Assembly: GCF_019693215.1 (NCBI RefSeq)
Contig: NZ_CP081183.1
Location: 1,615,226 to 1,679,225 of the forward strand
Direction of reading: 5' to 3'
DNA: 64,000 nucleotides
Source: Salinarchaeum sp. IM2453
Lineage (GTDB): Archaea; Halobacteriota; Halobacteria; Halobacteriales; Salinarchaeaceae
This document shows positions 643 to 46,042 of this stretch, piece after piece. The notes under the pieces were generated by a model. It searched no databases. It had not been told where the DNA came from and saw only the letters and a list, made by a program, of their open reading frames with translations. How positions within the stretch are numbered: the first letter of the stretch is position 1; each line of letters opens with the position of its first letter. The position numbers were made by a program, and so were the translations under genes.

Positions 643-2571
643 ATGAGTTCAGTTGATAAGCAACTTGAGGATATTAAAGCAGAGATTGAAAGTGAGTTGC
701 CGCCGCGTATTTCCGTTTCGGAGGTCTCATTTGAGGGTCCTGAGCTGGTAGTTTATACCCATGATCCCAAAGAGTTCGCCGACCAGGGCGATTTAATTCG
801 TCAACTTGCCTCGAAACTTCGCAAGCGAATTACTGTTCGTCCCGATCCGAGTGTGTTGTTGCCTCCAGCGGAAGCACGTAAGCGCGTCCAAGATGTCATC
901 CCTGATGAAGCCGGAGTAACCGATCTTGATTTCCATGCAGATACCGGTGAAGTCGTTATTGAAGCAGAAAAACCTGGGATGGTTATTGGACGTCACGGCG
1001 CAACGCTTCGAGAAATAACAAAAGAGGTTGGTTGGACTCCAGAGGTGGTTCGAACGCCTCCAATCGAGTCATCAACCGTTAAAAACGTCCGAAGCTTCCT
1101 GAAGCAGGAGCGTGGAGACCGCCGTGATATTCTGGAGCGGGTTGGTCGACAAATTCATCGCGAAGAGCTTTCTGATGATGACTACGTTCGTGTCTCTACG
1201 CTTGGGTGTTGTCGAGAAGTCGGTCGTGCAGCGTTTATTCTGTCAACACCCGAAACGCGAATCCTTATTGATTGTGGCGATAAACCCGGCGCAGAAGATG
1301 AGGTTCCGTATCTACAGGTGCCAGAGGCCCTTGGTGCTGGTGCAAGTAATCTTGACGCGGTTGTCTTGACACACGCACATCTCGACCACTCGGCGTTCAT
1401 CCCGCTTCTGTTTAAGTATGGATATGATGGCCCGATTTACTGTACTGAGCCCACCCGCGATCTAATGGGTCTTCTCACACTTGACTATCTCGATGTCGCC
1501 GCTAAGGAGGGGAGAGCACCCCCATACGAGTCAGAGATGGTTCGAGAAGCAATCAAACACACCATACCAATTGAATACGGTGATGTGACAGATATCGCCC
1601 CAGATGTCAAATTAACATTTCATAATGCGGGTCACATCCTTGGATCTGCGATTTCGCACTTCCATGTTGGTGATGGGTTGTACAATGTTGCATTCTCTGG
1701 TGACATTCACTATGAGGATACCCGATTATTCAATGGAGCCGTAAACGATTTCCCTCGTGTTGAAACGCTTATCCTCGAATCAACATATGGCGGTCGTGAT
1801 GATTACCAAACCGATCAGGAAGATTCTGAAAAGCGACTGAAAAAGATTATTCGAGAAACTGCAGAGCGCGGAGGCAAAGTACTCATCCCTGCTTTCGCTG
1901 TTGGCCGATCCCAAGAGATCATGCTGGTTATTGAGGAAGCTATGCGGAATGATGAAATTCCTCGCATCCCGGTCCATCTTGATGGTATGATCTGGGAAGC
2001 TACAGCGATTCATACCACATATCCAGAATATCTTCGCGATGAGCTCCAGAATCGAATCTTCCATGAAGAAGAAAACCCATTCCTAGCAGAGGAATTCAAC
2101 CACATCGATGGCGGAGAGGAAGAACGACAAGAAGTAGCTGACAGTGGACCATGCATCGTTCTATCGACCTCAGGTATGGTTGAAGGTGGACCAATTATGT
2201 CTTGGATTCGACATCTCGGGGGAGAAGAAGACTCCTCTCTTGTCTTTGTTGGCTATCAGGCACAAGGAACATTGGGCCGACGCATTCAGAGTGGCTGGGA
2301 TGAAATCCCAATTCAAACCCAGCAGAATGGAGCGAACAAGACTCAAACACTTCAACTTAACATGGATGTTGAAACAGTTGACGGGTTCTCAGGACACGCT
2401 GATCGTCAAGGTCTCATTAACTTCGTCAAAACAATGAATCCGCGTCCGGAAAAAGTTCTATGCGTCCACGGTGACGAACAGTCAACTCAGGACCTTTCCT
2501 CTGCCCTCTATCATAAATTCGATATGCGAACCTTTGCACCTAAGAACCTTGAGACATTTAGGTTCCTATAA
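643..2571 (+). CDS. fttA: aCPSF1/FttA transcription-termination ribonuclease (KH + metallo-beta-lactamase + beta-CASP)
   Basis: This 642-residue protein matches the usual length of archaeal CPSF1 (FttA). The family cleaves nascent RNA at U-rich ends and terminates transcription with Spt4/5 and RNA polymerase. Two KH-like domains fill about residues 1-150, including the GMVIGRHG loop. A metallo-beta-lactamase domain follows with HAHLDH at residues 244-249 as the zinc-binding motif. The beta-CASP part carries the family's VLIPAFAVGRSQE and LSTSGMVEGG segments. A late SGHADRQGL and a final CVHGDE supply further metal ligands. It stands alone, divergent from proS. Annotation as a generic mRNA 3'-end processing factor would refer to the same protein. 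Confidence 0.95.
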   Translation: MSSVDKQLEDIKAEIESELPPRISVSEVSFEGPELVVYTHDPKEFADQGDLIRQLASKLRKRITVRPDPSVLLPPAEARKRVQDVIPDEAGVTDLDFHADTGEVVIEAEKPGMVIGRHGATLREITKEVGWTPEVVRTPPIESSTVKNVRSFLKQERGDRRDILERVGRQIHREELSDDDYVRVSTLGCCREVGRAAFILSTPETRILIDCGDKPGAEDEVPYLQVPEALGAGASNLDAVVLTHAHLDHSAFIPLLFKYGYDGPIYCTEPTRDLMGLLTLDYLDVAAKEGRAPPYESEMVREAIKHTIPIEYGDVTDIAPDVKLTFHNAGHILGSAISHFHVGDGLYNVAFSGDIHYEDTRLFNGAVNDFPRVETLILESTYGGRDDYQTDQEDSEKRLKKIIRETAERGGKVLIPAFAVGRSQEIMLVIEEAMRNDEIPRIPVHLDGMIWEATAIHTTYPEYLRDELQNRIFHEEENPFLAEEFNHIDGGEEERQEVADSGPCIVLSTSGMVEGGPIMSWIRHLGGEEDSSLVFVGYQAQGTLGRRIQSGWDEIPIQTQQNGANKTQTLQLNMDVETVDGFSGHADRQGLINFVKTMNPRPEKVLCVHGDEQSTQDLSSALYHKFDMRTFAPKNLETFRFL

Positions 2572-2790
2572 TTCGCTATAATTGCCATACTATTTCAGAC
2601 GGCCAATCAAATTCGTACTGTAATTTTGTCAATCCGGTTCAGATCCCTCAATATCTTCTCTCTGAATAACTCCCAATGTGACAGAACAAACGAACTGGAT
2701 ACTTACCAAACAAGAAGTATCTCTAGGTGGGGCAGGTCGAGTGATTCGAGGTCAAGTCTCAGCGGTTTACCGAAATATATGACAACAGGA

Positions 2791-3204
2791 TTATTCAACT
2801 TCTATCTCAACGGATAACTCCCCACCTTCCGACAAGCGATCAATCATCTCCCGGGGTAAGTCGGCTGCCGCCTTATCTGCGTTGACCATTATCGTTCGAT
2901 CATCAACATAATCGCTTGTTCTACATACCATACTTCGATCGTTCTCGAAGGACAAATCAGGATGTCCTTGTCCGTTGATTGTAGCTGTTTTCTCGTCAAC
3001 AGTGAACGTAACTGTGATCTGGGCCGAGTGGTCTTTGCATGCTTCTATGAATCTGCTATCGAATTCTGCTGGTGTCTGATCAGCATTAATACCGACAATA
3101 CAGTCGCCAGCTGGTGTTAAGTAGTCATCTGACGTGATCTCCGCCGTTGATGTGTGCTTTGCTCGTACATTCTCGTGGCCAGTAGCTGCAATCTTTTGTT
3201 TCAT
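2791..3204 (-). CDS. DUF371 family protein
   Basis: A 137-residue protein with the hallmarks of archaeal DUF371: an N-terminal GHENVRAKHTSTAEIT stretch and the LTPAGDCIVGINAD segment. No catalytic role is established for the family. It has no signal peptide or membrane segment, is acidic, and is probably cytoplasmic. The zinc-ribbon gene at 3259-3453 lies 54 bp upstream on the same strand, so the two may be co-transcribed. The 219 bp between fttA and this gene show nothing recognisable. Confidence 0.8.
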   Translation of the reverse strand: MKQKIAATGHENVRAKHTSTAEITSDDYLTPAGDCIVGINADQTPAEFDSRFIEACKDHSAQITVTFTVDEKTATINGQGHPDLSFENDRSMVCRTSDYVDDRTIMVNADKAAADLPREMIDRLSEGGELSVEIEVE

Positions 3205-3258
3205 ACCCGCTACTATTGTAACTGAACACGTGGCTTTTGCGCTTTCTACCGTCGGCTA

Positions 3259-3453
3259 TCATTTCTGTGTCTGTGATACCGTGATTGTGATTGCCCCACA
3301 CTCACATTCATATACATGCCGGAGACACCCATCCTGCTCCATGGTCAGCCTCCATTCTTCCCCCGTTAACTTACGGTCACACTGCTCGCATGAGCAGGCG
3401 TCAGTTTGTTTTATCACATCTATTGATCGTTTCTTTATCTCCCTTAAACTCAT
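3259..3453 (-). CDS. Small zinc-ribbon-like protein (64 aa)
   Basis: This short reading frame encodes CSCEQC near residue 20 and CECG near residue 51, which together look like the two knuckles of a zinc ribbon. A TATA-like ATATTTAC at about 3475-3482 lies 22-30 bp before the ATG, the normal leaderless spacing, which argues that it is a real gene. Haloarchaea carry many such small zinc proteins, mostly of unknown function. It is upstream of, and on the same strand as, the DUF371 gene. Family name not recognised. Confidence 0.6.
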   Translation of the reverse strand: MSLREIKKRSIDVIKQTDACSCEQCDRKLTGEEWRLTMEQDGCLRHVYECECGAITITVSQTQK

Positions 3454-3719
3454 CCTACCTCGGTGAAACTGAAAGTAAATATCAACTGAATAATTCTGTC
3501 AGAATGTGGTAACTGGTAACGGGTTTCTTACGGCCTGTATGCCGGATTTTTGGCGTCTTCACCGGTACTTTTAAACATCAGCACACGGTACACTTAGATA
3601 CCAGAACGACACTGGCATTTGGTGGTACCGCTTGCAAACTGTCAATATTTCCTTATGGCTGTTCGCACATCCACCAGTGGTATCACCAGCCAGTGCGGTA
3701 ATGGAATAGAGGTTCAACC

Positions 3720-4619
3720 ATGCAGCTAGACGTACAACCACTTGACGAATCGAATAACATTGAAATTAGTGAAGAGGAGCTCGAAACAAGTTCTAAAGGC
3801 GAACTGATCAAACGTGCTGGTCAACTTCGTGACCGTCGGAATGAGCTGAATCAGATGGCTTCTGAACGCGCGAGTGAGCGTGATGAACTTAATGCGAAGA
3901 CTCGAGAGAAAGTTGACGCCGCTCAGGAACATCGGCATAAACGAGACACATTGAATGAGCTTGTTCAGTCGCACAAAGAAAAGCGAAACGAGCTAAACGA
4001 GAAGGCAAACGAACTGTTTGACCGGGTTGAAGATCGGAAATCTGATCTTGAAGTCGACGACGGAAAAGATCTGGAAAAACTCGAAGAAGAAATTGAAGAT
4101 CTTGAATTCAAACAGCAGACAGAGGTTCTCTCGACTGAGGAGGAACGCGAACTGATCGAGAAAATCGAAGCCAAACGCGAAGAATATCGCGAGCTCAAAG
4201 AGAAACTTGAACAGACTGATGATCTTGAAGATCTCAAGGACAAAGCTGAAAAAGTCCGATCCGAGGCTTCAAAACACCATCAGAAAGTCACTGAGCTTGC
4301 TGATAAGGCTCAGGAACATCACAACGAAATGATTGAGGCTTATCGCGAAGCTGACGAAATACGTGATAAAGCTGACGAAATGCACGAAATGTTCGTGGAA
4401 GCACAGGAAGCGGCCGACCAACACCACGAGGACTTTGTTCGTGTTCAGAAGCGCCTTCGTGAACTGGACAAGCAGGAAGAAGAAGAGCGCAAGAGCGAAC
4501 GAGAGCAAAAGAAGGAAGAAGCAAAAGAAGAAGCCGAAGAAATCTATCAGAAGTTCAAGGAAGGCGAGACCCTCGATACCGAGGATCTGATGAAACTTCA
4601 GAAAACGGGTATGCTGTAA
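3720..4619 (+). CDS. Archaeal coiled-coil protein (COG1340-like)
   Basis: The 299-residue product is almost entirely heptad-rich charged helix from about residue 20 to 270, dominated by Glu, Lys, Arg and Asp, with repeated RDELN- and KRNELNEKA-type units. It ends in a short FKEGETLDTEDLMKLQKTGML tail. This pattern and length match the uncharacterised archaeal coiled-coil family COG1340, sometimes wrongly labelled phosphoserine phosphatase. It has no membrane segment or enzymatic motif. A purine-rich GAGG lies shortly before the ATG. The gene precedes sppA with a 115 bp gap. A scaffolding or ribosome/cytoskeleton-associated role is possible but unsupported here. Confidence 0.8.
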   Translation: MQLDVQPLDESNNIEISEEELETSSKGELIKRAGQLRDRRNELNQMASERASERDELNAKTREKVDAAQEHRHKRDTLNELVQSHKEKRNELNEKANELFDRVEDRKSDLEVDDGKDLEKLEEEIEDLEFKQQTEVLSTEEERELIEKIEAKREEYRELKEKLEQTDDLEDLKDKAEKVRSEASKHHQKVTELADKAQEHHNEMIEAYREADEIRDKADEMHEMFVEAQEAADQHHEDFVRVQKRLRELDKQEEEERKSEREQKKEEAKEEAEEIYQKFKEGETLDTEDLMKLQKTGML

Positions 4620-4734
4620 GATCTGTTCTTGACTGTAGGGGAGGCATATTAGTATAATATATCTGATGTAACGATCCGGCGTTTGTTTTGAACCGGAACA
4701 CAAAACAGTTTACAGAGCCCATACATTCTGGTAT

Positions 4735-5724
4735 ATGGCTCGAACACTGCTTCGAATCATTATTACTGTTCTTGGAGGTGCTGTTGCTGCTGTAATTGGG
4801 GCCGCTCTTTTTGTTGGCCTCCCAGCAGACATGACAGAGCTGGTTGGAATCCTTCTTACTGTACTGGTTGCTATTGCAGGAGTCCGAATGGCTTACTCTG
4901 TTTCTGACAGCCTCTTTCCATCGTACAATGTTGCTGAGGTTGCTGTGAATGGCCCTATTTCCCGTGACAGTAATTCTCGACCTCTTCCATCATCGCCGAT
5001 GGACCCAGGAGCTGACGAAATCGTTGAGCAAATTGAGCGAGCGGATGCCGAAGAACATGTAGATGCTCTTCTTGTGAAGTTAAATACACCGGGTGGAGAA
5101 GTTGTTCCAAGCGACGACATCAGAAGAGCGATAGAAGACTTTGACGGCCCATCAATTGCTTATACAACGGATCTTTGTGCAAGTGGTGGATATTGGATCG
5201 CATCCGGATGTGATGAGCTGTGGGCCCGAAAGGGTAGTATCGTTGGTAGCATTGGAGTAATTGGATCTCGATATAATATTGCAGATTTGGCTGATCGACT
5301 TGGGGTGTCGTATGAACGATTTGTTGCTGGTGATTTCAAAGATGCTGGAAGCCCATTCCGAGAGATGTCTGACGAGGAACGCGACTATCTACAACAGCGT
5401 GTTGATGAATTCTATGACCAGTTCATCGAACGTGTAGCAGAGGGTCGCGACCTTGAGGAATCATTTGTCCGCGATACTGAAGCGAAGGTGTACCTTGGTG
5501 AAGAAGCCCACAAGCTTGATCTCGTTGACCACATTGGGACGACCGACGATATCCGCGAACAGTTGCAAACGCAACTTGACGCTGATGAGATTGTCATTGA
5601 ACAATTTGAGCCAGAACGCGGGTTCGTCTTCCAGTTGCAACAGAGCACAGCAAAAGTGGCATACGCTTTTGGAGCCGGTGTTGCTAACGTTCTGTCTGAC
5701 GGCACCCGCTTCCGATTCCGGTAA
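4735..5724 (+). CDS. sppA: Signal peptide peptidase SppA (S49 family serine protease)
   Basis: A membrane-anchored serine protease that degrades released signal peptides. Two hydrophobic segments occupy about residues 5-30 and 35-55, followed by the ClpP/crotonase-like catalytic domain. The nucleophile is probably Ser150 in CASGGYW and the general base Lys202 in GDFKDAGSP. Their 52-residue spacing equals that of the Ser-Lys dyad of characterised archaeal SppA. NTPGGEVVPSDDI forms the expected oxyanion-side strand. At 329 residues it is the short, single-domain archaeal form. It sits between the coiled-coil gene and the DUF373 gene, all on the plus strand. Confidence 0.92.
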   Translation: MARTLLRIIITVLGGAVAAVIGAALFVGLPADMTELVGILLTVLVAIAGVRMAYSVSDSLFPSYNVAEVAVNGPISRDSNSRPLPSSPMDPGADEIVEQIERADAEEHVDALLVKLNTPGGEVVPSDDIRRAIEDFDGPSIAYTTDLCASGGYWIASGCDELWARKGSIVGSIGVIGSRYNIADLADRLGVSYERFVAGDFKDAGSPFREMSDEERDYLQQRVDEFYDQFIERVAEGRDLEESFVRDTEAKVYLGEEAHKLDLVDHIGTTDDIREQLQTQLDADEIVIEQFEPERGFVFQLQQSTAKVAYAFGAGVANVLSDGTRFRFR

Positions 5725-33762: not shown

Positions 33763-34917
33763 TTATACCGTCATGTCTTCGTCTTCCAACACGTCAATTG
33801 CTCTTTGCAGATCAGATAGCTTATTCAAGTCAAATTCTGGCGGATCAAGTTCCTCTGGTGCTGGTAAACCTTCTGGATAGTCGTCAAATTCAGTAACAAC
33901 AGGATACTCGCCGTTAGCTTCCACAAACTTCTCTTGGCCGTCAACTGCCAAGAGATGTCGAATAAATTCTGCGGCCAAGTTCGGGGTCTCAGCTCCTTCA
34001 AGGATAACAACACCGGAGACCATAAACAATGAACCTGCATCACCAGACGTAAATGTGACATCAATATCTGAATCATCTCCGTACTGCTGTATCCGACGCT
34101 GTGCGTAGTACTGGTTTCCTAGTGCGAGGGTATTCTCATTGTCATTATCAACACTCTCTGCTTGTTGTGACCCGCTAGAGTGTAAATGGACATTTTGATC
34201 TTCCATCATCTTATTTATCCAATCTTTAGTCTCCTCCTCGCCCTTTCGTTCTAACATTGCAATAATAAATGACCGGAACGTCCCTGAATTCGGTCGGGTC
34301 GATATTTCCTCTGCAAATCGATCGTCTTCAGCATACTCCCAAATATCGTCGGGCAGTTCCTCTTCGTCCCACTCTGTTGTGTTATATTGTATCGCTCGCA
34401 CGCGACCTGAAACACCACACCACTCACCGTCATCGTCCCGATATTGCTCTTCGACAGCCTGCTCTACATCTTCTGGTAACTCTTGTGCTAATCCTTCTTC
34501 CTTGATCATTGAAAGTGATCCAGACGACTGTGTGTAGAAAACGTCCGCCTCAGCCTCTTCGCCTGCTTCTATTATTTGATTTCGCGCACCTGCATCCTCG
34601 TCACTGTAGTCTCTTTCAACCGTGAAATCCGGATATTCTTCTTCAAGTGCCTCGAACACTGGATCAATTTGGTCTTGCGTCCTTCCAGTCGTAACCTTCA
34701 GCGTTCCAGTTAACTCCCCTAAGTCGTCCCATGTTACCTGTTCTTCGTTAATCCCTGTTTCCTGTGGACCATACGTTTCGTATGGATCATCCCTAGATCC
34801 AAATCCAAGAAAGTCAGTACATCCTGCAATTCCGGCTACACCAGCAGCACTTGTAGCGGCAAGAAAACGCCGTCTATCTGTCGATTTCGCGCAACTTAGA
34901 TGGTTGCTGTCTTCCAT
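33763..34917 (-). CDS. fbpA: Iron(III) ABC transporter substrate-binding lipoprotein (FbpA-like)
   Basis: The N-terminus has a twin-arginine signal (DRRRFLAATSAAGVAGIAG) followed by a lipobox Cys, so it is exported folded through Tat and lipid-anchored outside the cell. The mature part is very acidic and of the FbpA/Fut type; LALGNQYYAQRRIQ holds the adjacent tyrosines that bind Fe(III) in the family. 384 residues. A TTTAGG-N4-CCTAAA palindrome sits 9-24 bp before the ATG and a TATA box just beyond it, so repression by an iron-loaded DtxR-type protein is likely. Divergent from the ATPase gene. Confidence 0.88.
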   Translation of the reverse strand: MEDSNHLSCAKSTDRRRFLAATSAAGVAGIAGCTDFLGFGSRDDPYETYGPQETGINEEQVTWDDLGELTGTLKVTTGRTQDQIDPVFEALEEEYPDFTVERDYSDEDAGARNQIIEAGEEAEADVFYTQSSGSLSMIKEEGLAQELPEDVEQAVEEQYRDDDGEWCGVSGRVRAIQYNTTEWDEEELPDDIWEYAEDDRFAEEISTRPNSGTFRSFIIAMLERKGEEETKDWINKMMEDQNVHLHSSGSQQAESVDNDNENTLALGNQYYAQRRIQQYGDDSDIDVTFTSGDAGSLFMVSGVVILEGAETPNLAAEFIRHLLAVDGQEKFVEANGEYPVVTEFDDYPEGLPAPEELDPPEFDLNKLSDLQRAIDVLEDEDMTV

Positions 34918-34925
34918 GAAAGGTT

Positions 34926-34941
34926 TTTAGGCTAACCTAAA
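34926..34941 (-). promoter_or_regulatory. Iron box (DtxR/IdeR-type operator) of the FbpA-like gene
   Basis: TTTAGGCTAACCTAAA, a perfect TTTAGG-N4-CCTAAA palindrome, 9-24 bp before the FbpA-like ATG. It sits between start codon and TATA box, where a bound repressor would block transcription. It matches the core of the known DtxR/IdeR consensus. Confidence 0.75.
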
Positions 34942-34949
34942 CATATAAT
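34942..34949 (-). promoter_or_regulatory. TATA-like box of the FbpA-like gene
   Basis: ATTATATG on the minus strand, 25-32 bp before the ATG and directly abutting the iron box. Leaderless spacing. Confidence 0.5.
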
Positions 34950-34989
34950 ACATTCGATTTTCTGTCACATATTCTTATATCATAATGTT

Positions 34990-35005
34990 TTTAGGGAGTC
35001 CTAAA
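34990..35005 (+). promoter_or_regulatory. Iron box of the FbpC-like ATPase gene
   Basis: TTTAGGGAGTCCTAAA, both half-sites perfect. CTTATAT at 34974-34980 is a TATA-like box just upstream on the plus strand, which would put the transcription start near the box. Serves the divergent ATPase gene. Confidence 0.7.
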
Positions 35006-35109
35006 CGTTAGTGAGATAATACACTGAATATGAAATGCCGCCGCTATCAACCTTCTATTCGCTCAAACTACACCTACAAATCCGCTCAGCATTTGAGAAG
35101 GTGGTATCG

Positions 35110-36258
35110 ATGACGGCATCCCATTCATCAAAGTATACACACCAGCATCCGGTATCTGAACAGATTCATAAATCCATAGATCAGGATAAAGCGGATGCAG
35201 ATTCCATCTTACAGCTTGACAACCTCTCAAAGAAGTTCGCGTCTGAACAAGCTGTGTCAGAGTTCGATCTCACTATCGATGAAGGAGAGATCATGACACT
35301 GCTTGGCCCCTCTGGCTGTGGAAAAACAACAACACTTCGTACGATTGCTGGCCTTGAGCGCCCGACCACTGGTCGTATTCGATTGGACGGAAGCACTGTT
35401 TCTGGTCCGGATACATTCGTTCCTCCTGAGAAACGCGATATTGGAATTGTGTTTCAGGACTACGCGCTTTTCCCGCACATGACCGCTGCAGAGAACATTG
35501 CTTTTGGAATCGACCACTGGGAGTCGTCCCGACGCCAGCAGCGAATTGATATGTTACTTGAGCTCGTCGGCCTCCCGGAGCAAAAAGAAAGCTATCCAGA
35601 AGAACTATCTGGTGGCCAGAAACAGCGGATTGCCCTAGCCCGTGCTTTAGCTCCTGAACCCGAGGTGTTACTTCTCGATGAGCCTTTCTCGAATCTTGAC
35701 CGCGATCTCCGGGTGACGATGCGTGAGGAGGTCCGACAAATACTCAAGCAGACTGGTGTGACTGCCATCTTTGTCACACATGATCAAGAAGAAGCACTCT
35801 CAATCTCTGACCGGATAGCAGTTGTACATAATGGAACCATCGAACAGGTCGGTTGTCCCGAAGAAGTCTTCCAACATCCTAACTCACGGTTTGTTGCTGA
35901 ATTCCTTGGCGATGCTGGCTTCCTCAGTGGCACTGTTGAGAAAGGTACTGTTGAGACTCCAATTGCGGATATTCCTGTTTCACAGATTCGAGGTCTTTCA
36001 GACGCATATAGTCAGACGGATGTTGATGTTCTTGTTCGACCAGACGACGTTATTGCGTTACCAGCAACAGAAGCCTCAATGGATGGCCGTGTCACCTATC
36101 GTAAATACTTGGGATCCATGATTCAGTATCGGGTTGAGCTATTAGATGGAACTACCATTGAGTGCATGCACAACCACTCTAACTCTGTCTCTCTCGGTGA
36201 TCCGGTTACAATTGAATTAACCGCAGATCATCCTCTTTCTTGGTTCCCTTGTGACTGA
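35110..36258 (+). CDS. fbpC: Iron(III) ABC transporter ATP-binding protein (FbpC-like)
   Basis: Walker A GPSGCGKTT, signature LSGGQKQRIALARAL, Walker B VLLLDEP and the switch His in FVTHDQEEALS are all intact, followed by a C-terminal TOBE-like domain from about residue 270. GIVFQDYALFPHMT is the Q-loop typical of the iron/spermidine (CUT1-like) branch. The start is uncertain: the ATG at 35110 has an AGGTG nine bases upstream, while an in-frame ATG at 35035 gives 25 more residues without family likeness. It is transcribed away from its binding protein and permease but has the same kind of iron box. Confidence 0.88.
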   Translation: MTASHSSKYTHQHPVSEQIHKSIDQDKADADSILQLDNLSKKFASEQAVSEFDLTIDEGEIMTLLGPSGCGKTTTLRTIAGLERPTTGRIRLDGSTVSGPDTFVPPEKRDIGIVFQDYALFPHMTAAENIAFGIDHWESSRRQQRIDMLLELVGLPEQKESYPEELSGGQKQRIALARALAPEPEVLLLDEPFSNLDRDLRVTMREEVRQILKQTGVTAIFVTHDQEEALSISDRIAVVHNGTIEQVGCPEEVFQHPNSRFVAEFLGDAGFLSGTVEKGTVETPIADIPVSQIRGLSDAYSQTDVDVLVRPDDVIALPATEASMDGRVTYRKYLGSMIQYRVELLDGTTIECMHNHSNSVSLGDPVTIELTADHPLSWFPCD

Positions 36259-36456: not shown

Positions 36457-36656
36457 ACTGTGTGCAATATAGAGTAGCCCGCTGGTGGTTAAAAGACCTT
36501 TCTTTTCTCTACCTTCTTCGTTAACTATTCTCTAACTCCAGATTGTCTTTGAGTATTTCACAGAAATTCAAGCCGGATGCCCCGAGGTTGTTGACACGAA
36601 TATCAGAGAAGTATAAATCCATAGATGTTTTAGGAATCTCTAGTAATTGTATAACA

Positions 36657-37682
36657 GTGAAGCGTCGCCTTGCATTAGGACTCGCGGTTGCTGCTGTTGC
36701 ACTTACAATACTCGTTGTGAGTGTCGGCTGGCAAGATGTACTTGATGCTATGCGAGATGCTGATCGGACGATCTTTTCACTCGCTTTCTTAGCCGTTATT
36801 GGGACATTGGCATTCAGAACGCTCTCATGGCATCAAGTCCTCCAGTCCGTTGAAAGGGCTGTCCCTCGTCGACAACTGTTCGGTATCTTCACCTCTGCAA
36901 CCTTCATGAAATACGCAACACCGTATGGACAAGTTGCTGCAACCCCCGCAATTGCGTACGTTTTGTCACAAAACACAGGTGGAGAATTTGAAGGTGACTT
37001 TGCGGCTGTCGTCAGTGGCGACTTTATCAACTACGTTCCATACTATACGCTGGGAACTTTTGGACTTTTGTACCTGATTTTTGGTACGGCCTGGACATTT
37101 GATGTTACAGCTAGATTCTATCTTGTTCCGCTGATCTTCCTTGCAATTCTCGCAGGCTTTCTGTTTATCTGGTACCGTCGCGAGACCGTAGAGCGAGCTT
37201 TGCTATCGGTTGCTGACTGGAGCCGACGTGTTGTCGCTCGAGTCTCCCCTCGTGTTGCAGAGGCACTCAGCAAGGAGAATCTTCAGGATCGACTTCAGGG
37301 ATTCTACAGCACACTTGATTTACTGGCAACAGATCGAAGATCAATCTTGCTGGCCCTCTTTTTTGGACACCTTGGATGGATTATGTTGGCTGTTGCGCTA
37401 TACGTTACTTTATATGCAATCGGCTCACCTATCGCGTTTCCTCTTGCAATGCTCGCTGTTGCATTGAGTAAACTCGGATTCCTTGTGCCTGCTCCTGGCG
37501 GGCTCGGTGGGGTCGAAGCTACCCTGGCAGCTGTTTTGGTCTTAACAGCTGGTATCGGTGTCGCAGCGGCGACAGCCGGGGCTCTTCTGTTTCGTTTGGC
37601 TGCGTACTGGTTCCCATTTGCACTTGGCGGAATCTGGACAGCAGTACTGTCTCTACGGGGCTTTCAATCCAATCGTAACTAA
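36657..37682 (+). CDS. UPF0104 / flippase-like integral membrane protein
   Basis: About 342 residues with roughly eight hydrophobic helices. LVPAPGGLGGVEATLAAVLV near the C-terminus is the signature of the UPF0104 (lysylphosphatidylglycerol synthase TM region, AglD-like) family, implicated in moving lipid-linked sugars or modifying lipids. The GTG at 36657 (VKRRLALGLA) is taken as start: family members begin just before the first helix, and a TATAAA at 36612-36617 lies about 40 bp upstream. An in-frame upstream frame from 36543 has no protein-like features. A half iron-box (TTTAGG at 36629-36634) lies just before it but lacks the other arm. Another family member is at 44465. Confidence 0.8.
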   Translation: MKRRLALGLAVAAVALTILVVSVGWQDVLDAMRDADRTIFSLAFLAVIGTLAFRTLSWHQVLQSVERAVPRRQLFGIFTSATFMKYATPYGQVAATPAIAYVLSQNTGGEFEGDFAAVVSGDFINYVPYYTLGTFGLLYLIFGTAWTFDVTARFYLVPLIFLAILAGFLFIWYRRETVERALLSVADWSRRVVARVSPRVAEALSKENLQDRLQGFYSTLDLLATDRRSILLALFFGHLGWIMLAVALYVTLYAIGSPIAFPLAMLAVALSKLGFLVPAPGGLGGVEATLAAVLVLTAGIGVAAATAGALLFRLAAYWFPFALGGIWTAVLSLRGFQSNRN

Positions 37683-41620: not shown

Positions 41621-43360
41621 TCACGCTAATGCAAGTGCTTGAGCAAATATCCCTCCAATCAGGAATGAAGTCAATACAGTCAAAAAGAGAATAAAGATTG
41701 CCATTTTGGAGCTATACTCCTGCACGACAGTTGCAAACACAGCAACACAGGGAACGTAAAACAGTGCAACAACTGAGCTGACAAACAATTGACTTGTCGT
41801 AAGATCCATCTCAATTAGCGGTAGTACAGTTAACTCTCGACGAACGATACCTAAAATAAGTGGTATCGCGGCCTCCTCAGGCAAATGCAACCACTCAACG
41901 ACAATCGGTCGCATGTATTTTCCAACCTGCTGCAATGCTCCAAGTTCATATAACACTGACGCGGCTCCGATTGCGTATATCATATGTACTGCGCCGCCCA
42001 GCACAAAGTGTTTGATACGCATCCATACCCGGGTTGCTGTCACTTTCATATTTGGGACAAGCAGCGGTGGAACATCCGTAATTGTTGGGGGAGATGGTCC
42101 ATCAAGCACCCGGTCCAGAATCAGTCCTGAAACAACCATTCCCAGTAAAGACATGAAAAAAATTGTCGGAACAAGCAGCAAAGAGGCTTCACCCAGAAGT
42201 GCGATAAATGCGCCTGTTTGTGCAACACATGGAACCGCAAGCACGATCATCAGTGTCATCATAATCCGTCGTTTCTGTGTCTCTGCAGATCGAGTTGCAG
42301 TTATACCAGGTATTGCACAACCATACCCGAGCATCAATGGAATCGTACTAGTTCCTGTGAGCCCAATTCGATCCATCACACCATCAAGCAGGACTGCAAG
42401 GCGAGGAAGATATCCACTGTCTTCAAGTAAGCTTAATGCGATATAAAACGACAGCACGTACGGTAACACGAGTCCAAAGGGCCATTCAATACTCTTGATG
42501 AGGAAACCATATTCGCCGATGAGAATATTCTGAATCGTTTCTGATGAAGTAGCTGATTGAACTGTCTGCTCTATCACCGGAAAGAGAATTGCTTCAAACA
42601 CCGGTAATAAAACGTACTGTCGAATTCCCATACCGACGCCTACGACGATAGCAAATGTTCCGACGAGTACAAGGAACGCAACAGGTATTCCTGGCCATGG
42701 CTGGACAAGTTGCTGACTGAGACGATCTAGCTTAGATGACCCAGTATTACTCGTCTTTGGTTCTCGAATCGCGTCTGTAGCAAGCTTTTCTGCTCGCTCC
42801 CACTTTTTCGATGGAGGATCATCATGCACAAACGGATCCGTGAGTTGTGCAGTAACCAGTTCTGACAATTTATCAATTCCCTGCTGCTCTGTTGCAATAG
42901 TTTCAACAACTGGACTCGATAGCTCACGCCGCAAATATCCTGTTTCAAGTGTCTGACCATTGTTTGCAAGCAAATCAACTCGATTTACTGCCGCAACAAC
43001 TGGGATATCATACTCCTGAACCTCGAACAATAGGTGCAAACTTGACTCAAGATTAACCGCATCTAACACACAAATGGCAACATCACAACCTTCTTCTAAT
43101 GCATCAATAGCAAGTTGCTCGGCCTCATTGCTTGCTGAGAGCGAATATGTTCCGGGAATGTCAACGACCGTAACTTCATGATTGTCGAACGTTGCCCGGC
43201 CGCGCTTATACTCGACTGTTGTCCCTGAGTAGTTGGCGATCTCTACATCCATGCCAGTGAGCGCACTGAACAGTGAGCTCTTGCCGACGTTTGGAGGCCC
43301 AATCAGGGCAACCGTTGGACGGTTCTCACATGAGAGTTCTGTCTTCTCTCCGTTACTCAT
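41621..43360 (-). CDS. feoB: Ferrous iron transporter FeoB
   Basis: The N-terminal GTPase has G1 GPPNVGKSS (about residues 18-26), G2 YSGTTVEYKRG, G3 DIPGTYSL and G4 NRVD. About ten membrane helices follow, with the two Gate regions marked by GYGCAIPGITATRSAETQKRR and VPCVAVFATVV. It imports Fe(II) across the cytoplasmic membrane. 579 residues, shorter than the roughly 650-770 of many FeoB proteins, with a short spacer between GTPase and membrane part. The start overlaps the stop of the FeoA-fusion gene (ATGA), so the two are co-translated under the iron box at 44359. Confidence 0.93.
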   Translation of the reverse strand: MSNGEKTELSCENRPTVALIGPPNVGKSSLFSALTGMDVEIANYSGTTVEYKRGRATFDNHEVTVVDIPGTYSLSASNEAEQLAIDALEEGCDVAICVLDAVNLESSLHLLFEVQEYDIPVVAAVNRVDLLANNGQTLETGYLRRELSSPVVETIATEQQGIDKLSELVTAQLTDPFVHDDPPSKKWERAEKLATDAIREPKTSNTGSSKLDRLSQQLVQPWPGIPVAFLVLVGTFAIVVGVGMGIRQYVLLPVFEAILFPVIEQTVQSATSSETIQNILIGEYGFLIKSIEWPFGLVLPYVLSFYIALSLLEDSGYLPRLAVLLDGVMDRIGLTGTSTIPLMLGYGCAIPGITATRSAETQKRRIMMTLMIVLAVPCVAQTGAFIALLGEASLLLVPTIFFMSLLGMVVSGLILDRVLDGPSPPTITDVPPLLVPNMKVTATRVWMRIKHFVLGGAVHMIYAIGAASVLYELGALQQVGKYMRPIVVEWLHLPEEAAIPLILGIVRRELTVLPLIEMDLTTSQLFVSSVVALFYVPCVAVFATVVQEYSSKMAIFILFLTVLTSFLIGGIFAQALALA

Positions 43361-44337
43361 ACTTCGCCCGCCCGACGAACGGTCGCTAACTGCTGAACAT
43401 GAATCTCCTGCGCAATATCACGGTCAATTGCAACTGTGCGACCTCCAGTACTGACAACGACTGGTCCATCAAACGGCTGGTGATTCTGTATTTCGACCTC
43501 TTTACCAGAGCGAATTCCTAACGCTGGCAACTGGTCATTATCAGGGGCCGATCTAATTACGACCTGTTCTCCTTCCGCAAATGATGCAAGAGTTCTCGTA
43601 TCTTGATGGATACTGTTTCTTTCGGTGACATCTGCTCCCCGTGCGGGGCAGTCCGGAACATCCACACATGATTCACATGCCTGTGGCTCGGAACACACAA
43701 TGACACTTTCCTTACCGAAACGATGCGAAACCGAGTCCTGATGAATATGGTCTGGAACAGACTCTGTCGGGTATAGATGTTCACTCCATCCACGTGGTCG
43801 ACGGTAAACCAGGGATTGGTGTGCCTGCAGATCAGTTACGAGTTGCTGGACAATCTTTGCTTTTGGGTACACATGGAACGAAAGCCAAACCACATCAAAA
43901 TCACTCGGTTCAACACCTTCTCCGTTTGCATGGCAGATCTCAATCTTCTTATCCAAGTTACGACTGTCAACTGCCGCTTGGGCTGCTTCAACGGCAGCTG
44001 GATCGTGATCAATAGCTGTAACTGAATAACCTTCCTTGGCTAAGACCATCGCCGTCATCGGCAGTGGTCCACATCCCACGTGTAGAATTTGTGCGTCTGT
44101 ATTGGGGTCAAGCAGTTCTAATTCACGCTGTACAAGCCGCTTGTATGCTACTCGCTGATACACGTCTCCGAAAACAGTTGAGTATTGATCTAGTGATTCA
44201 ATTATCTGTAAAATCCGGTTACTTGCTGTAACAGTCTTACGTGGAGACTCTGATGCCGAGACTGCGTTTTTCCCACTGGGTGAGAACGCATCCGTCTTGT
44301 GATCTTCCTCAACTGAATAGTCGGATTTACTTGACAC
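43357..44337 (-). CDS. Nicotianamine-synthase-like/SAM-binding domain fused to FeoA
   Basis: Starts at GTG, 326 residues. Residues about 40-195 form a SAM-binding Rossmann domain with VGCGPLPMTA (motif at 88-96) and RRPRGWSEHLYP (179-190). Both fit nicotianamine synthase (GxGPLPLT and RSxHGxRxFLYP in the plant enzymes) better than ordinary methyltransferases. Four cysteines follow at 215, 221, 224 and 230. From about residue 252 an SH3-like FeoA domain (GEQVVIRSAPDNDQLPALGIRSGKEVEI) ends the protein. FeoA regulates FeoB, encoded by the next, overlapping gene. An iron box lies 22-37 bp before the start. The product of the first domain is unknown. Confidence 0.8.
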   Translation of the reverse strand: MSSKSDYSVEEDHKTDAFSPSGKNAVSASESPRKTVTASNRILQIIESLDQYSTVFGDVYQRVAYKRLVQRELELLDPNTDAQILHVGCGPLPMTAMVLAKEGYSVTAIDHDPAAVEAAQAAVDSRNLDKKIEICHANGEGVEPSDFDVVWLSFHVYPKAKIVQQLVTDLQAHQSLVYRRPRGWSEHLYPTESVPDHIHQDSVSHRFGKESVIVCSEPQACESCVDVPDCPARGADVTERNSIHQDTRTLASFAEGEQVVIRSAPDNDQLPALGIRSGKEVEIQNHQPFDGPVVVSTGGRTVAIDRDIAQEIHVQQLATVRRAGEV

Positions 44338-44358: not shown

Positions 44359-44374
44359 TTTTGGTAAGCCTAAA
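44359..44374 (-). promoter_or_regulatory. Iron box of the NAS-FeoA/feoB operon
   Basis: TTTTGGTAAGCCTAAA, one mismatch to TTTAGG-N4-CCTAAA, extended by flanking CT and AG that also pair. It lies 22-37 bp before the GTG start; a TTATCATA about 41-48 bp upstream may be the TATA box. Confidence 0.65.
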
Positions 44375-44464: not shown

Positions 44465-45463
44465 TTACTGAAACCAACTGTCAACCCGAGTCTCTTCAGG
44501 TGATATTTGTTCGTCTGAAACGAATAGCCAAACTGTTGCTCCGGCCGAAAGAGCAAGCGGAAACCAAAACGTTGCAACCCGAGTAACTAGCGCAACTGCC
44601 ATCCCTTCGCTAAACGTTAATCCTCCAATTACACAAACCGAAGCTAACGTTGCCTCAAACGTTCCAAGTCCTCCTGGTGAAACGGGAAGTAAACTGACTC
44701 CGTATGCAAGAAACGTTCCAACAACTGCGATAAATAAACTTAGCTCAAGGGATAAAAACTGTGCAGCAAGATACACTTTGAACGGATACAATGCCCAGAC
44801 ACCAGTTGAGACGGATAGCATCCATGCCTGTTCAGAATATGTTAGCAACGACCTCGCATTCCGTATGGAACTTTGCAGAAATCTCTGTGCCTCATCTATA
44901 TGCGGGATGGAATATTCTTTGTCAACTAACAGTCGATCTCGAAATCGAATCAGCAAGTAGCCAATCAAGAGTACAATTATCGTCGCTAATATAGGTCCAA
45001 GGACCACATTGGTTTCTAACTGGACCGTCACATCGGCATAGTTGACGAAGAACAGCGTTGAAACGACACAGATGACAAAAAGCGGCCCCAGAGAGACAAA
45101 CTTCTGCACCAGTAATAACGCTGAAAGACGATGATATGCTGTATTTGTTATTTGATGGAATAGATATACTTTCGCCGCCTCCCCGCCCAGTTTTGAGGAT
45201 GGTGTAACGCTTTCAACGAACCCACTGGCGAGATTTACAATCGCTATGTCTCTGTATCGAATACTTTTCCCCGATCGCTTGAACAAATACCCCCACTGGT
45301 AAGCAAGCCCGGCGATAGTTATAATCTGTAGTCCTAACAGAATAAGTAGCTCATACCAGGCTAACATTTGCGCAGTTTCCACGATCTCTGCCCATCCAGC
45401 AATGAGTATTCCTCCAACCAAAATCGCCGCACCAACAACCCACAGAACTGCTTTTTGCCTCAT
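44465..45463 (-). CDS. UPF0104 / flippase-like membrane protein in the iron regulon
   Basis: 332 residues with about eight hydrophobic helices. LLPVSPGGLGTFEATLASVCV is the UPF0104 signature; NLASGFVESVTPSSKLGGEAAKVYLF is the conserved N-terminal loop. The start overlaps the stop of the upstream nicotianamine-synthase-like gene (ATGA), so both should respond to the iron box at 46027. The family is linked to lipid-carrier flipping or lipid modification; the coupling here suggests export or membrane handling of the product of the partner enzyme, which is an inference. Confidence 0.8.
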   Translation of the reverse strand: MRQKAVLWVVGAAILVGGILIAGWAEIVETAQMLAWYELLILLGLQIITIAGLAYQWGYLFKRSGKSIRYRDIAIVNLASGFVESVTPSSKLGGEAAKVYLFHQITNTAYHRLSALLLVQKFVSLGPLFVICVVSTLFFVNYADVTVQLETNVVLGPILATIIVLLIGYLLIRFRDRLLVDKEYSIPHIDEAQRFLQSSIRNARSLLTYSEQAWMLSVSTGVWALYPFKVYLAAQFLSLELSLFIAVVGTFLAYGVSLLPVSPGGLGTFEATLASVCVIGGLTFSEGMAVALVTRVATFWFPLALSAGATVWLFVSDEQISPEETRVDSWFQ

Positions 45464-46026
45464 ACTTGCAGCATCAGGGATTGATCAAACGTCGGCATCA
45501 GGTGTGTAACAGAATCGACTGTCGCCTCAGTCGTAGAAATGGAATCATATGTTTCCTCAAATATTGATCGGGGTTGCCTCACAATGACTTTACTTGGAGC
45601 GTCTGATGTTGATTGGTACGCTGAAACAATTTGATCCTTTGGTCGGGCTTGGAGCGCTAGTACGGCAACATCACAAACCTCAGAAACAATTGATCCGTCT
45701 CCTACGACTTTTGTACCGTCCCCTTCGTATAGTTTAACGTTATCGCCAACTCCGACCCGATTTAAATTCTGCTGCGCCTCTGTAAGGACTGCTGAATCCT
45801 TATCAATTGCATGAATAGTTGCATCAGTGTATTTTGCAAGCAATCCAGCAGTAAACGGCATTGCCCCACACCCCACGTTCAGAATATTATCTGCTTCATC
45901 GAGCGCTCCAAGCGATACCTCTTGTGAAACAACCGGCCGATACGAATGCATGTAGACTGAAAATACCGCTGGAAGTTCGGTGCATGATTTCTCCAACTTC
46001 GCAACTGTCTTTTGAACTGCGCTCAC
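45460..46026 (-). CDS. Second nicotianamine-synthase-like / SAM-binding protein
   Basis: 188 residues starting at GTG. VGCGAMPFTAGLLAKYTDATIHAIDKD (52-78) is the SAM-binding region, with the GxGxxPxT pattern shared with the FeoA-fusion protein. RQPRSIFEETYD (150-161) matches that protein's RRPRGWSEHLYP position for position at R, PR, E and Y. There is no FeoA domain and no four-cysteine segment. A TTTAGG-N4-CCTAAA box abuts the start codon and a TATA box lies 25-34 bp upstream. Plain class I methyltransferase is the conservative alternative. Confidence 0.75.
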   Translation of the reverse strand: MSAVQKTVAKLEKSCTELPAVFSVYMHSYRPVVSQEVSLGALDEADNILNVGCGAMPFTAGLLAKYTDATIHAIDKDSAVLTEAQQNLNRVGVGDNVKLYEGDGTKVVGDGSIVSEVCDVAVLALQARPKDQIVSAYQSTSDAPSKVIVRQPRSIFEETYDSISTTEATVDSVTHLMPTFDQSLMLQV

Positions 46027-46042
46027 TTTAGGTATGCCTAAA
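46027..46042 (-). promoter_or_regulatory. Iron box of the NAS-like/UPF0104 operon
   Basis: TTTAGGTATGCCTAAA, both half-sites perfect, immediately before the GTG start. The repressor would cover the transcription start. Confidence 0.72.

Follow-up and report, generated by a model that had tools for sequence, protein, structure and literature searches.

The described systems closest to the locus analyzed here are the nicotianamine synthases (NAS), which produce the plant metal chelator nicotianamine and are represented by the archaeal thermonicotianamine synthase MtNAS (PDB 3FPE) and the Pfam family PF03059, CntL of staphylopine biosynthesis, the FeoAB system and the MprF/UPF0104 flippases (PF03706). 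FeoAB combines FeoA and the ferrous iron transporter FeoB, with overlapping genes and iron-type regulation; in Bacteroides, FeoA binds the G domain of FeoB and slows GTP hydrolysis (PMC8980893). The locus lies in a window of 64,000 nucleotides from the haloarchaeon Salinarchaeum sp. IM2453, whose numbering is used throughout, and it shares features with all of them. Two of its products, here named NAS1 (a short NAS-like protein) and NAS2 (the NAS-like protein with FeoA), have MtNAS as their top profile and fold match, and carry the GxGxxPxT motif and the catalytic Glu and Tyr. However, both are without most of the N-terminal domain of MtNAS, have 8-9 residues deleted between the Glu and the Tyr, are fused or linked to FeoA and come paired alongside a flippase gene. 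CntL, of the same superfamily, is the second-best match, but its equivalog model NF033601 gives only 28.6 bits on the fusion protein against a cut-off of 350, and the racemase, opine dehydrogenase and cnt transporters of that system were not seen alongside the module. As in FeoAB, the FeoA and FeoB genes overlap and iron-type regulation is predicted, but here FeoA has a predicted SAM-dependent enzyme at its N-terminus and is accompanied by NAS1 and the flippase. Finally, as in MprF, a full-length PF03706 protein is paired with an enzyme gene, although the partner is NAS-like instead of a lysyl transferase and the context is predicted to be iron-regulated.

The initial annotation had described a protein that joins a nicotianamine-synthase-like domain, a four-Cys linker and FeoA next to feoB, and its reading frame, motif positions, Cys spacing, FeoA domain and overlap with feoB were all found as claimed. 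The fusion gene (43357..44337; this and all other genes and coding features of the locus are on the minus strand) has a GTG start and encodes 326 aa, with the Pfam models for NAS and FeoA both over their cut-offs. PF03059 matches residues 64-194, the NAS-like SAM-binding domain (43756..44148), with 45.3 bits against a cut-off of 27.1 (E 9e-12), and this assignment was also obtained by PDB profile and fold searches. This domain contains the motifs GCGPLPMTA (residues 88-96) and RRPRGWSEHLYP (residues 179-190). It is followed by the linker C215-x5-C221-x2-C224-x5-C230 (43648..43695) and by the FeoA domain, PF04023, at residues 249-315 (43393..43593; 53.2 bits, cut-off 23). At its start, feoB (41621..43360) shares 4 bases with the stop end of the fusion gene, and its product passes the cut-offs of FeoB_N (152 bits), Gate (104) and FeoB_C (29.6), with TIGR00437 slightly under its cut-off (300.8 against 315.65). 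The Cys cluster is invariant in five haloarchaeal fusions and variable or absent in other groups; we therefore discarded the idea that metal binding by these Cys residues is central to the system. WD-40 matches in a first PDB search were likewise dismissed, as they corresponded to weak repeats on the N-terminus, modelled as disordered, with no single stretch passing alone.

The relationship to the NAS family proposed in the initial annotation was corroborated by several approaches. Of 16 NAS2 proteins, 15 match Pfam NAS at E <= 0.01. A NAS2 profile built from 16 sequences retrieved from the PDB MtNAS (1.1e-19), CntL (2.4e-13) and, as the best ordinary methyltransferase, an entry at 5.9e-8. With the NAS1 profile, the values were 8.7e-14 for MtNAS and 5.3e-13 for CntL, followed by a precorrin methyltransferase at 6.2e-11, so the margin over methyltransferases is narrower for NAS1 than for NAS2. 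The AlphaFold2 models of the fusion (mean pLDDT 79.3) and of NAS1 (pLDDT 83.5) both had MtNAS as top PDB match (E 2.2e-11 and 4.8e-10, respectively), and a placement in an unrelated methyltransferase family did not appear. In the fusion model, the residues before approximately 37 are structureless and of low confidence.

Three residues, numbered as in the fusion, are kept in 36/36 NAS1, 34/34 NAS2 and 8/8 canonical NAS proteins: E47, Y65 and R179, the strand Arg. Glu47 (codon 44197..44199), conserved in 70/70 NAS1 and NAS2 proteins, aligns with the catalytic Glu of MtNAS (E81) and AtNAS1 (E77), and Tyr65 (codon 44143..44145) with Tyr107 and Tyr106 of these enzymes. The Glu, within an LE motif, and the Tyr align unguided with eight methanogen NAS proteins, the equivalence of the Glu being a sequence alignment across the 8-9 residue gap, with the position of E81 read through a close MtNAS relative (L204). 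The titles of PDB entries list an E81Q mutant of MtNAS and an E84Q mutant of CntL, and in Arabidopsis NAS1 (AtNAS1) the equivalent Glu and Tyr are essential (PMC10248798). It should be noted that neither protein is a full-length NAS with its N-terminal helical domain: the Pfam match of the fusion begins at profile position 101 of 276, and NAS1 has 188 aa in all. NAS1 and NAS2 are thus a truncated branch of the NAS superfamily and not orthologues of NAS or CntL: the nicotianamine-synthase-like label holds for the superfamily but not for a complete NAS or for CntL. Since both proteins lack the greater part of the N-terminal NAS domain, their pocket for the substrate cannot be the same as in NAS. 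Between the chelator enzyme and the metal sensor offered in the initial annotation, the invariant catalytic Glu and Tyr favour an enzyme rather than a mere sensor.

The tree separates NAS1 from NAS2, each being a supported clade (98/93 and 100/98) that holds archaea and bacteria, a pattern that points to an old duplication and gene transfer. Additional Thermoplasmatota NAS-like paralogs (approximately 60-135 bits) branch apart from NAS1 and NAS2, although this split is not strongly supported (90/73); they were set aside for their separate branch and different neighbours. These paralogs, often several per genome, are found for example at positions 2418-5079 of locus L123 and similarly in L124-L131. 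Some of their loci adjoin genes for a UbiA prenyltransferase and an ApbA/PanE-type dehydrogenase, and perhaps represent another cluster for a SAM-derived metabolite.

The link between the fusion and feoB is real, but it is one element of a larger module that the initial annotation had not noticed. Upstream of the fusion there is a gene for a flippase-like membrane protein (44465..45463), which matches LPG_synthase_TM (PF03706) with 132 bits against a cut-off of 33.4 over profile positions 1-301 of 302, that is, at full length, and also NCBIfam TIGR00374. It overlaps by 4 bases with the NAS1 gene (45460..46026), with which it is also paired in relatives. NAS1 has 188 aa and bears the GCGxxPxT signature as well; the protein of the window scores 11.9 bits with Pfam NAS, under the cut-off of 27.1, and was identified by PDB profile search, AlphaFold2 model and tree. 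A second LPG_synthase_TM-like gene, without a linked NAS-like gene, is present at 36543-37682.

The conserved module consists of NAS1 and the flippase, NAS2 and FeoA, either fused or adjacent, and FeoB. Mapping with local HMMs showed all or nearly all of it in 37 loci, which come from Halobacteria, soda-lake Thermoplasmata, other members of the phylum, spirochaetes, Desulfonatronospira-like bacteria, Acetothermia and Dehalococcoidia; these loci are genomes or contigs, include the window and comprise a few near-identical cases. FeoA is present in 36 of them, FeoB in 36, NAS2 in 35, NAS1 in 33 and the flippase in 32, and NAS2 and FeoA are fused in 24; because NAS1 or NAS2 served to find the loci, the counts of these two are not independent, and the informative ones are those of the partner NAS, the flippase, FeoA and FeoB. 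Absent parts may reflect contig ends, for instance in L035 and L046. In the mappable cases, NAS2 of the clade adjoins FeoA/FeoB and NAS1 usually adjoins the flippase gene, and some genomes carry NAS1-flippase apart from NAS2-feo.

The fusion was found in 5 of the 394 Halobacteria genomes sampled, namely that of the window and four others; two genomes sampled from the same family as the window lack it. A scan of named genomes located it in Halobiforma nitratireducens, Thermoplasmata MAGs, Alkalispirochaeta alkalica and a Spirochaetaceae MAG. It is therefore a true NAS-FeoA fusion kept in relatives and present also in soda-lake Thermoplasmata, spirochaetes and other archaea. In four spirochaetes (L050, L180, L183 and L186) the flippase, NAS2 and FeoA are in a single uninterrupted frame of 583-800 residues, an apparent three-part fusion. 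NAS2 and FeoA are neighbouring genes in Desulfonatronospira and Desulfonatronovibrio, and in Acetothermia and Dehalococcoidia they are separate, with NAS1-flippase-NAS2 convergent with feoAB. A minimal form, with one more distant NAS-like gene, the flippase and feoAB, was observed in two genomes of one genus (L191 and L192). In addition, four haloarchaeal loci (L038-L041) present NAS1-flippase pairs with no feo genes nearby, and this pair may work without Feo. No FeoB or flippase was found in the short flanks of canonical methanogen NAS loci, where the only match, L205, is itself a NAS2-FeoA locus, and neither an opine dehydrogenase nor an uptake receptor was found adjoining the module genes.

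Another aspect to mention is the habitat of the hosts. The names B1Sed10, CSSed10 and T1Sed10 presumably refer to the Kulunda soda lakes, and NSHQ14 to what we take to be an alkaline ophiolite well. Together with the genera Alkalispirochaeta, Desulfonatronospira and Halobiforma, these isolate names suggest alkaline or alkaline-saline habitats, a pattern drawn from names and general knowledge that depends on which genomes turned up. Iron is poorly soluble in such habitats, which is consistent with the iron-acquisition role proposed below.

The iron control that the initial annotation had put in its title without evidence is likely. A palindrome with one mismatch, TTTAGGCTTACCAAAA (44359..44374, no strand assigned), lies approximately 22 bases upstream of the fusion gene, and a perfect one, TTTAGGCATACCTAAA (46027..46042, no strand assigned), at the start of NAS1. 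We take their common pattern, TTTAGGN4CCTAAA, to resemble the DtxR/IdeR operator. Module genes of four further haloarchaea, of Thermoplasmata and of two spirochaetes are likewise preceded by it, with 0-1 mismatch, and shuffled sequence gave an expectation of 0.05-0.65 matches per locus at two mismatches. A pattern search of the host genome returned three perfect boxes, none of them outside the window: the one at NAS1 and a pair at a solute ABC transporter. Boxes with one mismatch showed no excess genome-wide (8, against 10 in the reversed control), and for this reason only the perfect and the recurrent sites were used in considering iron control. The host genome encodes DtxR-family proteins, and Desulfonatronospira-like loci have a Fur-family gene upstream. 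Taken together, the module is likely under DtxR-type iron control, with predicted binding of the regulator to these boxes. The two boxes at the transporter (34926 and 34990) are within 34917-35035, where two genes diverge, one for a solute-binding protein (33763-34917) and the other for an ABC ATPase (35035-36258). These genes probably encode an iron ABC transporter that belongs to the regulon of the module. A one-mismatch box is also present upstream of a P-type metal ATPase gene (G000:C1:1168416, L141).

The explanation that we prefer, to which we give about an even chance, is that the locus is an iron-repressed variant of Feo in which SAM-using aminocarboxypropyl transferases make a nicotianamine-type iron ligand at FeoB, both the chemistry and the product being predicted. 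Low iron would lift the repression exerted by a DtxR-family regulator and switch the set on. NAS1 and NAS2 would then transfer the 3-amino-3-carboxypropyl group of S-adenosylmethionine to an amine, possibly in two steps, giving the ligand. FeoA, fused to NAS2 or beside it, would serve to dock NAS2 at FeoB, on its cytosolic G domain, so that the ligand would be made at the site of Fe(II) entry. The flippase-like protein would carry the ligand through the membrane, either as such or in a lipid-linked form, and the ligand may act outside, in iron capture, or inside, buffering the incoming Fe2+. In favour of this explanation are the profile and fold rankings, the invariant Glu, Tyr and Arg, the recurrent gene set and the recurrent boxes. 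Several points count against it: both proteins lack most of the N-terminal NAS domain, NAS1 of the window scores under the Pfam NAS cut-off, no opine dehydrogenase or uptake receptor adjoins the genes, the one-mismatch box is not in excess genome-wide, FeoB is thought to transport free Fe2+, and the PF03706 family has been associated with transport of lipids and lipid-linked sugars (PMC5898192) rather than of small metallophores.

That same association makes lipid modification the strongest rival, although an improbable one, at somewhat more than one chance in five in our judgement. NAS1, and NAS2 as well, would add the SAM-derived aminocarboxypropyl group to a lipid head group, and the flippase would turn it outward, as MprF handles lysyl-phosphatidylglycerol, leaving a membrane-bound metal-binding head group near FeoB. 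Besides the partner itself, a flippase of a family whose studied members move lipids or lipid-linked sugars (PMC5898192), this proposal agrees with the usual adjacency of NAS1 and the flippase gene, seen even in the pairs of L038-L041, and without the N-terminal NAS substrate domain the pocket might be open enough for a bulky substrate. Aminocarboxypropyl chemistry on lipids is, moreover, performed by BtaA. It fits less well that the partner to which NAS2 is linked, FeoA, is soluble, that the system is common to archaea and bacteria despite their differing lipids, and that no lipid-binding feature was identified in the module proteins. We regard as clearly less probable a regulatory role in which NAS2 would sense SAM, or would modify FeoA or FeoB, perhaps with an aminocarboxypropyl group such as that added in diphthamide synthesis, thereby gating iron transport. 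The physical fusion to a modulator of FeoB GTP hydrolysis, as FeoA is in Bacteroides (PMC8980893), and the Cys-rich linker of haloarchaea would suit such a role, but in most loci NAS2 is accompanied by NAS1 and the flippase, suggesting a product that diffuses or is a lipid, and Desulfonatronospira-like bacteria, Acetothermia and Dehalococcoidia have NAS2 and FeoA as two distinct proteins.

Almost the same low probability, or marginally lower, corresponds to NAS1 and NAS2 being ordinary SAM-dependent methyltransferases, NAS-like in the Rossmann core alone. Generic methyltransferase models do match these proteins, and the fold match comes mainly from the Rossmann core; nevertheless, MtNAS and CntL rank above the methyltransferases, MtNAS by approximately 11 orders of magnitude for NAS2, and, outside the SAM motif, the residues that NAS enzymes require do not vary. 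The rarity of the fusion in haloarchaea (5/394 genomes) could raise the suspicion of a local sequencing or annotation error, which we consider extremely improbable: a fusion in 24/37 loci from several phyla, within a conserved gene set, led us to reject an artefact or frame error, since it is present in independent genomes.

No description of the module was found in the literature searched, which covers few subscription papers and may miss an earlier mention, for example in reviews of NAS-like metallophores. Searches for NAS and FeoA returned a single paper with one occurrence of each term, those for NAS and haloarchaea none, and those for a FeoA domain and methyltransferase nothing related. 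Parts of a survey of Feo systems report FeoA with "an additional domain", and those parts make no mention of nicotianamine or methyltransferase (PMC8749426).

Beyond this locus, we tentatively propose, with a confidence somewhat short of even, a cross-domain system for iron acquisition in which paired truncated NAS-type transferases would make a new SAM-derived ligand, soluble or lipid-anchored, that the flippase would display or release, with NAS2, tethered through FeoA, coupling the ligand directly to FeoB. The system would have spread by gene transfer, with many of its hosts in alkaline brines. If true, uptake by FeoB, long seen as that of free Fe2+, would be coupled in some lineages to on-site synthesis of a chelator, FeoA would be a docking module for an enzyme, and archaea would have a metallophore-type pathway derived from the NAS core alone. 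It would also make testable the purpose of FeoA, the acquisition of iron at high pH and salt, and the evolution of nicotianamine-type chemistry. The recurrence of the module in archaea and bacteria suggests a common way to get scarce iron.
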